A DNA stretch of 43,860 nucleotides from a virus. Positions within the stretch are counted from its first letter, which is position 1. Each line of letters starts with the position of its first letter. Positions 28,609 through 41,943 of this stretch are shown piece after piece. Both the position numbers and the translations under genes were made by a program. The notes beneath the pieces are model-generated. The model ran no database searches. It was not told the origin of the DNA and saw only the letters and a list, made by a program, of their open reading frames with translations. The stretch is taken from positions 1 through 43,860 of the IMG/VR virus record IMGVR_UViG_3300023179_000189. The stretch is one strand, 5' to 3'.

Positions 28609-28683
28609 AAATAGCTTTTCACGCCAGACTGCGACACCTATACGATGCCCCAAATTCCTGCAATCTGGCGTGAGAAACTATTT
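28609..28683 (-). ncRNA. 20-bp stem-loop directly behind tRNA-Ser
   Basis: Arms 28609-28628 and 28664-28683 pair over 20 positions with one mismatch and one G-T wobble, enclosing a 35-nt loop. The core is a perfect TCACGCCAGA / TCTGGCGTGA. On the minus strand it begins within the CCA end of tRNA-Ser(GCT). The loop shares CTGCGACAC (plus strand) with that tRNA. No T run follows, so it may be a processing or stability element, or a small RNA. Confidence 0.5.
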
Positions 28684-28771
28684 GGCGGAAGGTAGAGGAT
28701 TCGAACCCCTGCGACACTTAACTATCCACTGATTAGCAATCAGCTCCAATAGACCACTCTGGCAACCTTCC
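28683..28771 (-). tRNA. tRNA-Ser(GCT)
   Basis: Cloverleaf with acceptor GGAAGGT/ACCTTCC, anticodon loop with GCT flanked by the stem CTGAT/ATCAG, a long variable arm as in serine tRNAs, T arm GGGGTTCGAATCC, G discriminator and encoded CCA. Reads AGC/AGT. Confidence 0.92.
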
Positions 28772-28778
28772 CTATAAA

Positions 28779-28868
28779 TGGCGGATGGGGTGAGACTCGA
28801 ACTCACGAGACCCCGAAAGGTCTTGGCGGTTTTCAAGACCGCTGCAATAGCCGCTATGCGACCCATCC
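28779..28868 (-). tRNA. tRNA-Ser(TGA)
   Basis: Acceptor GGATGGG/CCCATCC, anticodon loop CTTGAAA (anticodon TGA), a long variable arm (AGACC-TTTC-GGGGTCT region), T arm GTGAGTTCGAGTCTCAC, G discriminator and encoded CCA. It lies 7 bp from tRNA-Ser(GCT) in the same orientation. Reads TCA and probably other TCN codons. Confidence 0.92.
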
Positions 28869-28873
28869 ATAAT

Positions 28874-29029
28874 TTAACTACTTTTCTTACTCATCATTGA
28901 TTTTAAAGTTTTGCAAAAAACCTCTGAGAAATTAATTTTTTCCTCACATTTGTAAGCCATGATTTTCTTATAAAGCTTCTCGCTCTTAATGTTAATCGTG
29001 ATTCTATTTTGTTTTCTTTCCGTAGTCAT
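28874..29029 (-). CDS. ribbon-helix-helix DNA-binding protein candidate, 51 aa
   Basis: ATG 29029 to TAA 28874. A short strand, NRITINIKSEKL, is followed by two helices (YKKIMAYKCEEK and FSEVFCKTLKSMM), the layout of Arc/MetJ-type repressors. An inverted repeat CAACGT-N7-ACGTTG covers the -10 of its own promoter (29050-29068), so autoregulation is likely. Similar sites occur at 398-416 and 34505-34523. Confidence 0.6.
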   Translation of the reverse strand: MTTERKQNRITINIKSEKLYKKIMAYKCEEKINFSEVFCKTLKSMMSKKSS

Positions 29030-29049
29030 TGTTAGTATTAATTAGATTA

Positions 29050-29085
29050 CAACGTTATTTATACGTTGGATATTTTAGATGTCAA
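29050..29085 (-). promoter_or_regulatory. early promoter with perfect AACGT operator
   Basis: On the minus strand, consensus TTGACA (29085-29080), a 16-nt spacer and TATAAA (29063-29058) are seen. The perfect inverted repeat CAACGT-N7-ACGTTG (29050-29068) covers the -10. It drives the ribbon-helix-helix gene and, by read-through, the two tRNA-Ser genes. The sequence CTATTGACA is also shared with 41768-41775 and 37036-37043. Confidence 0.65.
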
Positions 29086-29089
29086 TAGC

Positions 29090-29449
29090 CTATTTAGAAC
29101 TTTTTTTTCTTTTTTTTAAACCCGTCTCGATGAAGATGTAATCAGGGTATTTGTATTGGAAAAGTTTTGAACGCATTTTGTAGCCTTCAGTTTTAAATCC
29201 CTTTGATTCTTCTGCGACCATGGCTTTAAGTTTGCAGTCAAAATAAACAAAATCAGGCGTGTATTCCATCTTCCTAATAGTCTTTCCTTGATTGTTTTTG
29301 AAAGAGGGTTGTAGCTCAAAAAAAACTTGCTCTTGTAGATTTTTGATTTCTCCAGCTTTCTCTAATAATTTTAATTGCTGAAGTCTTTGGTATTCAGTTT
29401 TGGAATCACTTCCTTTGTATTTTTTTGTTCTAAAATAGTTATTTCCCAT
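29090..29449 (-). CDS. DUF1064-like nuclease-fold protein, 119 aa
   Basis: Start at ATG 29449 (an in-frame ATG at 29464 adds MRGLR). Conserved points are SKTEYQRLQQLKLLEKAGEI, then EYTPDFVYFD and VAEESKGF. The PD...E-x-K pattern (PDF...EESK) fits a PD-(D/E)xK restriction-endonuclease fold, as proposed for DUF1064 phage proteins. Likely a DNA-processing enzyme of the early module. Overlaps the preceding gene by 11 bp. Confidence 0.7.
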   Translation of the reverse strand: MGNNYFRTKKYKGSDSKTEYQRLQQLKLLEKAGEIKNLQEQVFFELQPSFKNNQGKTIRKMEYTPDFVYFDCKLKAMVAEESKGFKTEGYKMRSKLFQYKYPDYIFIETGLKKRKKSSK

Positions 29450-29744
29450 ACGCAAACCCCGCAAAATATTTTACCCAAGTTTTGAAATTATACTTCGGCA
29501 ACGATTCATCATAATAACAGTCTAATTCATAATCATAGAACTGGATTAGAAGCTCGTAGGAGCAGTTTATTTCTAAAGCATCCACAATCCTACCAAGTCC
29601 GAAATAATAATCGGCAACCTCAAGAACTCCTCCAATATCCTCTCCTATCCAACGCCAATCTTTGGTTCCATCGAAGTATTTATGGCAGAACTCTTGAGCA
29701 AGTTTATTAGTTGCTTTTTGCCAGTCTTTCAGTACTTTGTTCAT
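29439..29744 (-). CDS. conserved phage hypothetical protein, 101 aa
   Basis: Start at ATG 29744, which overlaps the TGA of the upstream small gene (ATGA). Sequence features: NKLAQEFCHKYF, then W-I-G-E-DIGGVLEVADYYFG and a terminal acidic region. Similar small proteins occur in other phages near replication genes; their function is unknown. Confidence 0.65.
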   Translation of the reverse strand: MNKVLKDWQKATNKLAQEFCHKYFDGTKDWRWIGEDIGGVLEVADYYFGLGRIVDALEINCSYELLIQFYDYELDCYYDESLPKYNFKTWVKYFAGFAYGK

Positions 29745-29908
29745 CCTATTTGCTCCCATTTTTTACGTCTCGATTCAAAAGACTGTTTTGTTATTATTTC
29801 CTCGACCTTTTTGCCTTCGATCTTGAGCCTTACATTGTAAGAATCAAAAGTGACAATGATTTTACGATCGAGATTATCTTTGTAGATTTCTGTTATTTCT
29901 TTTTTCAT
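29741..29908 (-). CDS. small hypothetical protein, 55 aa
   Basis: ATG 29908 to TGA 29741; the end GGATGA provides the start of the next gene, so the two are coupled. Basic, with a C-terminal KQSFESRRKKWEQIG. It lies immediately downstream of the tRNA-Met gene (29920-29996). Not recognised. Confidence 0.6.
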   Translation of the reverse strand: MKKEITEIYKDNLDRKIIVTFDSYNVRLKIEGKKVEEIITKQSFESRRKKWEQIG

Positions 29909-29919
29909 GTTTAATCGAA

Positions 29920-29996
29920 TGGTGGAAGAGGCTGGATTTGAACCAACGACATAGGCTTTATGAGAGCCTTGTTCTGACCAACTGAACTACTCTTCC
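29920..29996 (-). tRNA. tRNA-Met(CAT), possibly tRNA-Ile2
   Basis: Acceptor GGAAGAG/CTCTTCC, D arm with AGTTGGT, anticodon loop CTCATAA on the stem AGGCT/AGCCT, T loop TTCAAAT, A discriminator and encoded CCA. The CAT anticodon belongs to elongator Met or, if the C is lysidinylated, to Ile reading ATA. The latter would suit an AT-rich phage. Confidence 0.9.
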
Positions 29997-39290: not shown

Positions 39291-40154
39291 TTAACAGGTA
39301 ATTAATTTAAGGAATTTTCCATCTACATCTTTTGGATGAGAAAGATAACATTTCCGGCTGCAAAATATCGCCTTGAGCCTTTCTTTCTTTTTAAAAGTAG
39401 AATTACAACTAGGGCAGATTTTCTCGATTAAGGGACTTTTTTTAGAAGAATCAGAAACTCTTTTTGGAAGCGACGTAAGATAACATTTTCTAGAGCAGTA
39501 AAGTTTGTATCCTTGATTTAATCTAAATATTTTTGCAGCATTTTGTGGTCTGAAATCCTTAGAACAGCAAGGACAAGTGACAAAATCGGCGCAGCTTTCT
39601 ATTTTGAGAGCATGTTTCCTTAGTGCTAACACAGAATTTTCTTTGGAGCAGTTTTTGCAGAGAACATCTATTTTAGCCGATTTTGTTAAAAATCTTTTGT
39701 TACATTTAGGGCAACAGGCATTTCTTCTTTTTAACAGCGATTTTCCACTATTAGCGGTTCGTAATCTTTTTCTAATTACTTCTCTTTTTTCTTCATCTAA
39801 ATTACTAAATTCTTCCTTTCTACAATTGCTAATAGTTTTTCTAATTGATTGACCCACTAAAGTTGTAGAGGGAGGAATACCATATCTTAAACAATAATCT
39901 TCTCTGGTCATTAAGTGAGAATGGTGAAGATGCAAAGTTAGATGATTATAATGTAGGCCACATTCTAGACACTGGATTGTGTCTCCCATTAAATAAGTTT
40001 CCAATTCACTTTCCGACATTCTCTTGCCGACGTAATGATTGAAATCTTTCTTTTTAAAAGTTGGTGATGCTTGTTTTAAAGCTTTTTGATAATGTTTAGT
40101 GCTGCTTTCTTTGGCTCCACTGCCTCCGAACAAAGCTCCTTTTCTTCCCGCCAT
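39291..40154 (-). CDS. Ros/MucR-type zinc-finger protein with extra zinc ribbons
   Basis: 287 residues from ATG 40154; the frame is open for 57 codons more, but those overlap the structured RNA segment. The Ros/MucR finger IQCLECGLHYNHLTLHLHHS plus MTREDYCLRYGIP occupies about 60-93. Three further Cys clusters follow: CCPKCNKRF...CKNC, CPCCSKDF...YCSRKC and CPSCNSTF...FCSRKC. Ros/MucR regulators are typical of alphaproteobacteria. GGGGAAGAG lies 2 nt before the ATG and may be masked by a pseudoknot. Confidence 0.7.
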   Translation of the reverse strand: MAGRKGALFGGSGAKESSTKHYQKALKQASPTFKKKDFNHYVGKRMSESELETYLMGDTIQCLECGLHYNHLTLHLHHSHLMTREDYCLRYGIPPSTTLVGQSIRKTISNCRKEEFSNLDEEKREVIRKRLRTANSGKSLLKRRNACCPKCNKRFLTKSAKIDVLCKNCSKENSVLALRKHALKIESCADFVTCPCCSKDFRPQNAAKIFRLNQGYKLYCSRKCYLTSLPKRVSDSSKKSPLIEKICPSCNSTFKKKERLKAIFCSRKCYLSHPKDVDGKFLKLITC

Positions 40155-40158
40155 AACT

Positions 40159-40203
40159 CTTCCCCTGTAGTTGGTTAGCAAGGCTGGGGGAAGCCAACCT
40201 TGC
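40159..40203 (-). promoter_or_regulatory. pseudoknot masking the ribosome-binding site of the Ros-like gene
   Basis: On the minus strand GCAAGGTTGG (40203-40194) and CCAGCCTTGC (40187-40178) form a 10-bp stem with one G-T pair and loop CTTCCC. The loop is perfectly complementary to GGGAAG (40164-40159), part of the purine-rich leader GGGGAAGAG before ATG 40154. This is an H-type pseudoknot layout that could block translation. Confidence 0.5.
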
Positions 40204-40550
40204 CGATTTGCCGCGTGGGCATATGATAATTTCGGATTCTTCCCAATCCTAATAAAATTTCTTCTAACACTTCCAACGCCCCTAGCCCGAGTTTCCAACT
40301 TACATTGACTGGCTTTCACTCCCACGGTTTGTCTTACGACTTAACGCTAGCGCGTGCGTTGGTGTCTAACACAATCAACCTTTATTTCCAAGAATCAAGA
40401 GAAATTGCCTTTTTACAGAAGGACTAACTGGCAAGAATTCTTACCACGCTTGCAGATGTGATATTACTAGCTTTTGAGTTATTGCTAACTCTACCATTTT
40501 ATTGATATTCCCGCCTTCATCTTTACTTGAGCGAAGCGCCTTTTTACATC
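40204..40550 (-). ncRNA. structured non-coding segment, possible 3' module or second RNA
   Basis: About 350 nt without a credible gene. G+C reaches 31/60 in 40321-40380. On the minus strand CCAACGC (40362-40356) pairs with GCGTTGG (40279-40273), closing a 90-nt domain that contains a GTC-GTAA-GAC hairpin (40331-40340). GTAAAGATGAAGGC and CTTCTGTAAAAAGGC also occur in the larger RNA candidate 40883-41740. It may be a part of one long transcript, a duplicate module, or a long 5' leader of the Ros-like gene. Confidence 0.45.
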
Positions 40551-40772
40551 TTAAGCCGTTGCCGCTTTTACTGCCCACATTGCGGCTTCTTCGTATTTGG
40601 TTTGAGCAATGGCTATCAAGCGATTTTTTTCACTTTGACCACCGTCTGTTTGTAAGTGTTTTAATAGGTCAATCATTTGTGCCGAATTTCTTTTTATGTC
40701 GTTCACAGTTGAATTACCTGACGCATTAAAATCTATTCTTACCCTTATTTCCCCTAATGTTTTTTCTTCCAT
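40551..40772 (-). CDS. Acb2/Tad1-like nucleotide-sponge candidate, 73 aa
   Basis: The sequence GEIRVRIDFNASGNSTVND then IKRNSAQMIDLLKHL and NRLIAIAQTKYEEAAMWAVK matches the small helical-hairpin phage proteins (R-V-x-FN-S-x-N ... A-x-T-x-EEAAMWAVKA) that I associate with the Acb2/Tad1 domain. Acb2 sequesters cyclic oligonucleotides and so blocks CBASS; Tad1 binds the Thoeris signal. The family call is from memory of the motif, so the ligand is not implied. Weak ribosome-binding site. It lies between two structured RNA segments. Confidence 0.6.
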   Translation of the reverse strand: MEEKTLGEIRVRIDFNASGNSTVNDIKRNSAQMIDLLKHLQTDGGQSEKNRLIAIAQTKYEEAAMWAVKAATA

Positions 40773-40882: not shown

Positions 40883-41740
40883 ATAACTATTGTTTGGTTA
40901 ATATTTGCCTTTTTACAGAAGGCTAACTTGTCATTGATAAGGAACTACCCCTTATATGCCCAAAATTAACACAAATTCACCCAATTAAACGGGAATAGTT
41001 AATTTACCTTTTGGCGCATTACTGGTCTTTCTAGAATAACCAAAGATTGTCACTTACTTTCAAACAATCCTGCTGCGTCTTTATTTCCGCCACAATGATC
41101 TATTGCCTTCATCTTTACCTAGGCTAGGTTGCCGTCTTTCCGAGCTGTCAGGTCGCTACTTTTGGGAACCCCGCACCCGCTTTATCCCTGCCTTGCGCGG
41201 TAATACTTGCAGCCGTTGGGAACCGATATCAAATATCTTAAGCGTTTATAACCGCCGCCCTAGCTCTAACAGAGAGTATTTTTGCACTAATCTTTCCCCG
41301 TGCCAAGGTTCGCCCCGCCAGATTGATTACTGACCTCTCCACCTATGCGATGGCGTCCTAGTTATAGACGAGGGGCGGTATTTACTCCCCGCCTTTGCGT
41401 GCAGGGCTTGTCCTTTCGGAATTTAAGAAAACCTAATTTTTCAGCTTTCCCGCTATTTCTAGCTAGTTTGGCAAGATTTTATTGGCTTTCGCCTCACGGC
41501 AGGAGACTTGCCAGCCCCTTAGTCCGATTTGTTTCATCCCCCGCTACGCAGTGAACAAAACACTTGGCAAAGTCTCAACGCCACATCTCGAATATTAGTG
41601 ACGCTGAGAAATTACACAAAAAGACTTTCGTCTCAATAAGCTAGCCGCCCTGCGTGGAAATACGAAAACCACAACGACTAGCCAATTGAAAAGAAAGCTG
41701 GGAATTTTTAAGCTCCCAGCTAATGAGTGATTCAGACTCA
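40883..41740 (-). ncRNA. large structured non-coding RNA candidate, about 0.85 kb
   Basis: No believable gene lies here on either strand, and G+C is far above the neighbours (36/60 in 41161-41220, 33/60 in 41341-41400, 32/60 in 41281-41340). Read on the minus strand, hairpins abound: 41724-41740, 41697-41720 (GCTGGGA/TCCCAGC), a 45-nt domain closed by TGGCAAG/CTTGCCA (41507-41513, 41469-41475), GATTGT/ACAATC, and ATAAGG/CCTTAT. Four end in GAAA loops: 41622-41633, 41484-41493, 41452-41463, 41411-41420. A TTGACA lies just upstream. Size and phage setting recall GOLLD/ROOL, but membership is unproven. Confidence 0.65.
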
Positions 41741-41743
41741 AAA

Positions 41744-41773
41744 CAACGTTACTTTTGTGAAATTAAATGTCAA
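41744..41773 (-). promoter_or_regulatory. promoter-like site before the large RNA
   Basis: Minus strand CTATTGACA (TTGACA 41773-41768) is followed after 16 nt by TAACGT, a weak -10 that coincides with an AACGTTG half-site of the early operator family. Transcription would begin near 41738, at the first hairpin of the RNA candidate. It lies inside the 3' end of a small frameshifted gene. Confidence 0.4.
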
Positions 41774-41938
41774 TAGACTTTGTTCGACCTTTTTTCAAAA
41801 TTTCTTCGATCTTGTCGAATCTTTTAATATCCTGCATGTGCTCGCTGTTTTCTAGCATTAATTGACTTAAGTAATAATAAACGCAGAACATTAAGACTAT
41901 TAGTGCTGGCAATATTAATTCTTCTAAAAGTTTTTTCA
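41763..41938 (-). pseudogene. small membrane protein interrupted by a frameshift
   Basis: ATG 41938 encodes a good membrane anchor (LLEELILPALIVLMFCV) but stops after 23 codons. In the -1 frame the sequence continues naturally as YYLSQLMLENSEHMQDIKRF and on to TAA 41763. One added base at the GTTATTATTAC stretch restores a ~58-residue protein. Either a sequencing indel, a real lesion or programmed slippage. Confidence 0.45.
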
Positions 41939-41943
41939 TTTTA

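Follow-up and report, generated by a model that had tools for sequence, protein, structure and literature searches.

The described RNAs most comparable to the locus reported here are of several kinds. Among the large ornate RNAs, tRNAs occur in the linker regions of GOLLD (PMC12286853). In phage PhiTE, pseudo-ToxI repeats occupy ToxN (PMC3475682), and RNA anti-CRISPRs (Racr) are small phage RNAs that mimic CRISPR repeats and have been described as solitary repeat units (PMC10651486). The abiF RNA motif has been shown to be an antitoxin RNA (PMC12373285). We analysed a tailed-phage contig of 43,860 nucleotides (IMG/VR record IMGVR_UViG_3300023179_000189; hereafter the window, or W), which has genes for terminase, portal, major head protein, a Sak-type annealing protein and DnaB. 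An array of structured RNA modules lies on the early, minus-strand side of this contig, and it belongs to a previously undescribed family of mosaic RNA arrays found in tailed phages. The existence of such a mosaic structured-RNA locus is highly probable in our assessment. To our knowledge its architecture fits no established type, and no published match was found in the open-licence literature searched.

The DNA from 41740 to 40905 is non-coding and is flanked by a 58-aa gene ending at 41763 and by an acb2 gene at 40772-40551; the structured region extends beyond the acb2 gene to about 40155. The initial annotation had proposed a single giant structured RNA at 40883-41740. Its observation that no credible gene lies there holds, the only open reading frames of at least 60 aa being two plus-strand TTG/ATG frames of 69-76 aa, both running antisense to the early operon. 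The raised G+C content was likewise confirmed, at 0.46-0.50 per 200-nt segment versus about 0.35 for the contig, and single 60-nt lines can exceed these values. The TTGACA at 41768-41773, noted earlier, is located inside the last codons of the 58-aa reading frame (41763-41939) and has no scored -10 partner; sigma-70 promoter matches around the array stayed at chance level in a search of the area. Two tRNA-Ser genes and one tRNA-Met gene are present at 28683-29996 on the minus strand of the window, distant from the array.

The minus strand of 40905-41762 folds at -274 kcal/mol compared with -245 +/- 6 kcal/mol for dinucleotide shuffles (z -4.58), beating 20 of 20 shuffles; the plus strand gives a z of -1.37. 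Stronger folding of the sense than of the antisense strand was also obtained for four further array members that were folded. The four GAAA-capped minus-strand hairpins listed earlier are all present (GAC-GAAA-GTC, GGC-GAAA-GCC, GCTA-GAAA-TAGC and TCC-GAAA-GGA), and they represent an enrichment, with 0.34 expected from mononucleotide shuffles and only 1 of 2000 shuffles reaching four. The statement that the GNRA sense occurs on the minus strand only was too strong, as the plus strand carries two GAAA-capped hairpins as well. That first reading holds in so far as the minus strand does specify a structured non-coding RNA; other phages carry relatives of it, and some of its elements show covarying base pairs.

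The family was recognized through the replication initiator protein, which led to two IMG/VR relatives whose co-located non-coding DNA shares blocks with the window. Exact-pattern scans with the conserved blocks identified further members, giving 18 in total (W, L085, L087, L095-L100, L102-L106, L108, L125, L128 and L135). The arrays follow several small early genes in a row, the last of which is often small and membrane-protein-like, and their 3' neighbours, where the contig reaches that far, are the replication initiator and DnaB genes. No integrase was detected above the cut-off in any of the 18 records, and no similar DNA was found when the array DNA was compared with INPHARED and PLSDB. 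In L097 (2524-2997) and L125 (1260-1796), both given in array sense, the array is closely preceded by small genes for proteins with tandem C-S-F-G-E/K-R/G/Y repeats, which resemble a beta-helix protein.

Mapping of module seeds over the 18 members defined about 27 recurrent module types of 20-140 nt, separated by short A-rich linkers. In a given member a module is usually either present at 85-100% identity or absent; no module is universal, and no tandem or long direct repeats were found in the window array. The features of the window are as follows, in the order of the predicted transcript.
41696-41721, minus strand: terminator-like hairpin of 9 bp with a T-rich tail, between the upstream 58-aa gene and the array.
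41531-41561, minus strand: module A2, a hairpin whose 17-nt head, UCACUGCGUAGCGGGGG, is carried on a stem that varies freely; 13 of 18 members.
41469-41526, minus strand: module B1, a GGCAAG/CUUGCC hairpin enclosing GCC-GUGA-GGC and GGC-GAAA-GCC.
41382-41467, minus strand: module B2, a group of at most four short hairpins, of which two have GAAA caps; nine members.
41310-41380, minus strand: module Q, shared with L098 (100%) and L135 (98%).
41284-41308, minus strand: H-type pseudoknot, copy 1, with stem S1 CCUU/GGGG, stem S2 GCAC/GUGC and loop AAAGAUUA.
41153-41283, minus strand: structured stretch for which module mapping gave no match and which is so far without a relative.
41131-41152, minus strand: module KW, shared with L103.
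41104-41130, minus strand: module K, which is pseudoknot copy 2 (pseudoknot at 41105-41128), with S1 CCUA/UAGG, S2 GCC/GGC and loop UAAAGAUGAA.
40905-40928, minus strand: module T, copy 1, hairpin GCCUU-CUGUAAA-AAGGC, an exact repeat with 40405-40422; nine members.
40551-40772, minus strand: acb2-like gene (anti-CBASS) of 73 aa between RNA modules; Pfam PF24729, 45.9 bits, cut-off 27.
40513-40537, minus strand: pseudoknot copy 3, weaker, with S1 GCUU/AAGU and S2 GCU/GGC.
40405-40429, minus strand: module T, copy 2.
40375-40404, minus strand: module E, a GAAA-capped hairpin found in more members than any other module (16 of 18, two of which have it twice).
40273-40362, minus strand: module F, a domain of about 90 nt closed by CCAACGC/GCGUUGG; eight members.
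40155-40256, minus strand: leader U, a separate putative control element 3' of E and F.
39291-40154, minus strand: next gene, encoding a ROS/MUCR- and HNH-like protein; start moved from GTG 40325 to ATG 40154.

Modules are found at 95-100% identity in phages that have little other DNA in common. The B1-B2 block of the window and L105, for instance, is 97% identical over 149 nt, and the two otherwise share only module F (77%) and 47 nt. B1 is 100% identical in six members and 98% in a seventh. The order A0-A1-A2-Y/Z/X1-B1-B2-P-C-Q/H/M16-G-K-D-T-E-F-U is mostly kept. Exceptions are A2, which stands before or after A1, F, which lies mid-array in L108, and K, which takes at least three positions; the direct 3' neighbour of C may be H, Q, G, M16, M20 or E. 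The shortest arrays consist of A2-C-E (L095) and of A2, a DUF3800-IX RNA, the pseudoknot and E (L128). L093 and L100, which come from two data sets, are identical over 1231 nt, and assembly error is ruled out because module junctions recur in independent data sets.

Compensatory base changes were observed in three elements, namely the A2 hairpin, the recurrent pseudoknot and the leader hairpin. The A2 head is flanked by complementary arms at 33 places with 25 distinct flank pairs; since the 17-nt head was fixed by the search pattern, its invariance is no evidence. The mean uninterrupted A2 stem measures 5.92 bp versus 1.48 bp with the arms shuffled, and none of 20000 shuffles exceeded 3.24 bp. 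A2 hairpins also occur on their own in unrelated phage contigs of 30-64% G+C (L112-L124, L126, L127 and L129-L134), often at the ends of genes or operons and in some cases with a T-run, and A2 is apparently a new widespread phage RNA element. A2-like matches in Pectobacterium phage CB7 and Pseudomonas phage KPP25 were partial with E values of 2-6 and were rejected, so no link is drawn to the pseudo-ToxI locus of PhiTE, which sits in another part of the PhiTE genome. For the pseudoknot, stem 1 is paired in eight of eight distinct versions, which 13 of 20000 shuffles reach; stem 2, with six cores and 94% pairing, is weaker (880 of 20000 shuffles). The G-U pairs of the A2 and pseudoknot stems show that the sense strand is the minus strand of the window. 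A few double changes were seen in M17, F, C, D, X1 and A1, with two among the 27 pairs of the F consensus fold. B2 (whose consensus fold shows little sequence variation), G, H, P and E show almost no variation or changes on only one side, so that their variation does not test the fold, and most modules vary too little to prove the folds drawn. Nitrospira matches of the F pattern turned out to be coding sequence. Palindromic UUGCAA hairpin loops on varying stems are present, in array sense, in L087 (695), L098 (3242), L125 (2160) and L135 (2470), and are a possible kissing-dimer site.

Leader U shows a different kind of conservation. Its hairpin loop is complementary to the Shine-Dalgarno sequence at 40166-40159 or to a copy of it in the upstream hairpin at 40249-40234, and both matches are kept over seven diverged versions (window, L087, L095, L096, L104, L108 and L128), in which the anti-Shine-Dalgarno loop, the Shine-Dalgarno sequence and its copy change together. 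The complementary runs within the same locus average 6.9 and 7.3 nt, lengths reached by 3 and 24 of 5000 permutations, respectively, and the hairpin stem covaries. Judged by these sequence patterns, leader U appears to be a true element of translation control, and it moves the start of the following gene to ATG 40154.

The earlier proposal had considered the RNA a member or diverged member of GOLLD or ROOL, or else a new class, and membership of either family is not borne out. With the RF02032 model none of the 18 records exceeded the GOLLD threshold of 150 bits (chance-level scores of at best 9.5 in L098 and 6 in L087), and with RF03087 none exceeded the ROOL threshold of 99.1 bits, a single chance match scoring 7.8 bits. 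An Rfam search of the window region gave nothing meaningful up to an E value of 10. Over the window and its relatives, with gathering and relaxed thresholds, Rfam recognized only tRNAs, chance matches, a DUF3800-IX RNA in L128 and a sub-threshold isrG. The last of these, on the stored minus strand of L135 (2884-3081), scores 49 bits against a cut-off of 100 (E 3.7e-10) and overlaps the array.

The DUF3800-IX RNA (RF02968; L128:32-104, on a contig fragment of 8.7 kb) scores 57.5 bits with a cut-off of 36.8. RF02968 has no match in the window; only one of the roughly 27 modules, that of L128, matches a known partner RNA. Among 396 sampled Nitrospirota genomes the RNA was detected in 18, of which 17 exceed the cut-off; a convergent DUF3800 gene lies 79-119 nt from it in 15 of the 18. 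Three of the encoded proteins have matches among the candidate-defence models of PADLOC. At several Nitrospirota loci (among L139-L154), TTGACA followed by a TATA-like box could be seen by eye before the RNA, a sequence arrangement suggesting that the RNA has its own promoter there. The 18 phage records, several of which are fragments, gave no PF12686 match to a DUF3800 gene. The RNA that normally stands beside a candidate defence gene therefore occurs alone in the phage array, among exchanged modules.

The arrays accommodate genes and tRNA-like pieces as well as RNA modules. Protein genes of up to several hundred bases lie between modules in five of the 18 members (W, L085, L097, L103 and L106); acb2 is inside the arrays of three members only (W, L085 and L097), an HNH gene is within that of L106, and other small reading frames are in those of L103 and L106. 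Degenerate CCA-ended tRNA-like modules with a CUCAUGA anticodon-like loop are located at L096:31-110 and L104:12646-12723; those of L104 and L096 score 18 and 21 bits, respectively, under the tRNA cut-offs. A similar CAU-like loop is found near L108:5800, and tRNA genes or borderline tRNAs lie directly 5' of the L104 and L102 arrays. That tRNA-CAU-like loops serve as decoys of anticodon nucleases is only a speculation.

One alternative is a single large ornate RNA of the GOLLD/ROOL sort, belonging to a new class and perhaps homo-oligomeric, in which the modules are optional peripheral domains. The mostly conserved module order agrees with such an RNA, as do the GAAA loops, the pseudoknots and the palindromic UUGCAA loops of L098, L125, L135 and others, which resemble ornate RNAs, and the tRNAs or tRNA-like modules in or at the edge of arrays, as in GOLLD linkers. 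However, the GOLLD and ROOL models do not match, no module is shared by all members and the shortest keep few (L095 and L128), protein genes interrupt five arrays, A2, F and K change place, and an unsystematic look revealed no scaffold pairing between modules. We consider this alternative unlikely, if a serious contender. The notion of one continuous giant RNA is not sustained by modules that are gained, lost and sometimes moved independently and by the genes between them; a new class survives as an option, of a different sort than first proposed, namely a mosaic array. A second candidate is a cis-acting leader with hairpins that control transcription elongation or stability as well as translation of the downstream replication operon. 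The array always lies directly upstream of, and co-oriented with, replication genes, leader U fits such control, and A2 is at operon ends in unrelated phages, in some with a T-run. Mosaic module turnover and the insertion of tRNAs and genes would nevertheless be odd for a leader, and the bacterial DUF3800-IX RNA, convergent to its gene, is not a leader; the proposal appears about as unlikely as the first.

Location beside the replication initiator and DnaB genes would also suit a DNA-level element such as a replication origin, with the hairpins acting as single-stranded DNA. This is improbable, given that the G-U pairs frequent in the stems of A2 and the pseudoknot would become A-C mismatches in the opposite strand, that folding is strand-specific and that tRNA-like modules are present. 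Hardly credible is an artefact or a decayed coding sequence, to which the plus-strand frames of 69-76 aa overlapping the array might point: members with only B1 or only B2 (L100, L104 and L125) cannot contain the complete frame that runs antisense to B1-B2, and module boundaries recur in independent metagenomes (L093/L100).

We tentatively favour a co-transcribed string of separately folding RNAs that probably imitate, as decoys, the partner RNAs of host defence proteins, a reading made by analogy and held at somewhat less than even confidence. That the modules act separately rather than as one giant RNA is the likelier of the two, whereas a mostly kept order could also reflect one RNA architecture. 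The decoy function itself, argued from analogous systems, is possible and rather short of probable. RNA mimicry is the most likely reading on account of the DUF3800-IX RNA in L128, acb2 in the arrays and the precedents of pseudo-ToxI, Racr and abiF. According to this model, the array would be transcribed from the minus strand together with the early genes, and the transcript would be read as a string of small modules comprising hairpins, pseudoknots, multi-branched domains and tRNA-like pieces, which we infer to be processed and to act separately. By imitating the partner RNA, or the target, of a host defence protein, each module would occupy that protein, and recombination between modules would allow phages to gain, lose and exchange them like accessory cassettes. 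It is doubtful, if conceivable, that the arrays are hypervariable RNA-only counter-defence cassettes in which each module neutralises a different RNA-dependent defence protein, such as DUF3800.

The arrays add some two dozen recurrent structured RNA elements without an Rfam match, among them the A2 hairpin, which covaries across phages that have no other detectable similarity, and they indicate that phages can assemble and exchange non-coding RNA by modules in the manner of protein genes. Should the decoy reading be right, the arrays would represent a new form of RNA mimicry, and each module, as a bait for one RNA-dependent defence, would lead directly to defences not yet recognised; if the cassette reading is true, modules would be exchanged between phages like anti-CRISPR protein genes. 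DUF3800 is an uncharacterised candidate-defence family with associated RNAs, and its link to the arrays is testable.

Compared with known systems, the arrays share with Racr the idea of a small phage RNA that mimics a host RNA partner, mimicry being only inferred for the arrays; an Rfam search of the window region revealed no resemblance to CRISPR repeats. The abiF motif/RCd22 antitoxin is a conserved structured RNA beside a gene whose protein it neutralises; it adjoins its toxin gene in a prophage, and no sequence relation to the arrays was found. With GOLLD and ROOL the arrays have in common a non-coding, phage-encoded length of several hundred nucleotides, pseudoknots, GNRA loops and tRNAs near or inside, but they swap modules between phages and have protein genes inserted between modules. 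Moreover, GOLLD has a universally conserved 3' half, whereas the commonest 3' module of the arrays, E, is a 30-nt hairpin and the rest is optional. Pseudo-ToxI and the type III antitoxins (ToxI, CptI and TenpI) resemble the arrays as small pseudoknotted RNAs, phage-encoded and subject to recombination and repeat expansion. No ToxN gene (PF13958) was detected in the 18 records, in a search run without a positive control. The H-type pseudoknot is a type III antitoxin feature that the arrays possess, in an unrelated pseudoknot sequence; type III antitoxins are built from tandem repeats of a 34-50 nt unit, whereas the arrays are built from many different modules.
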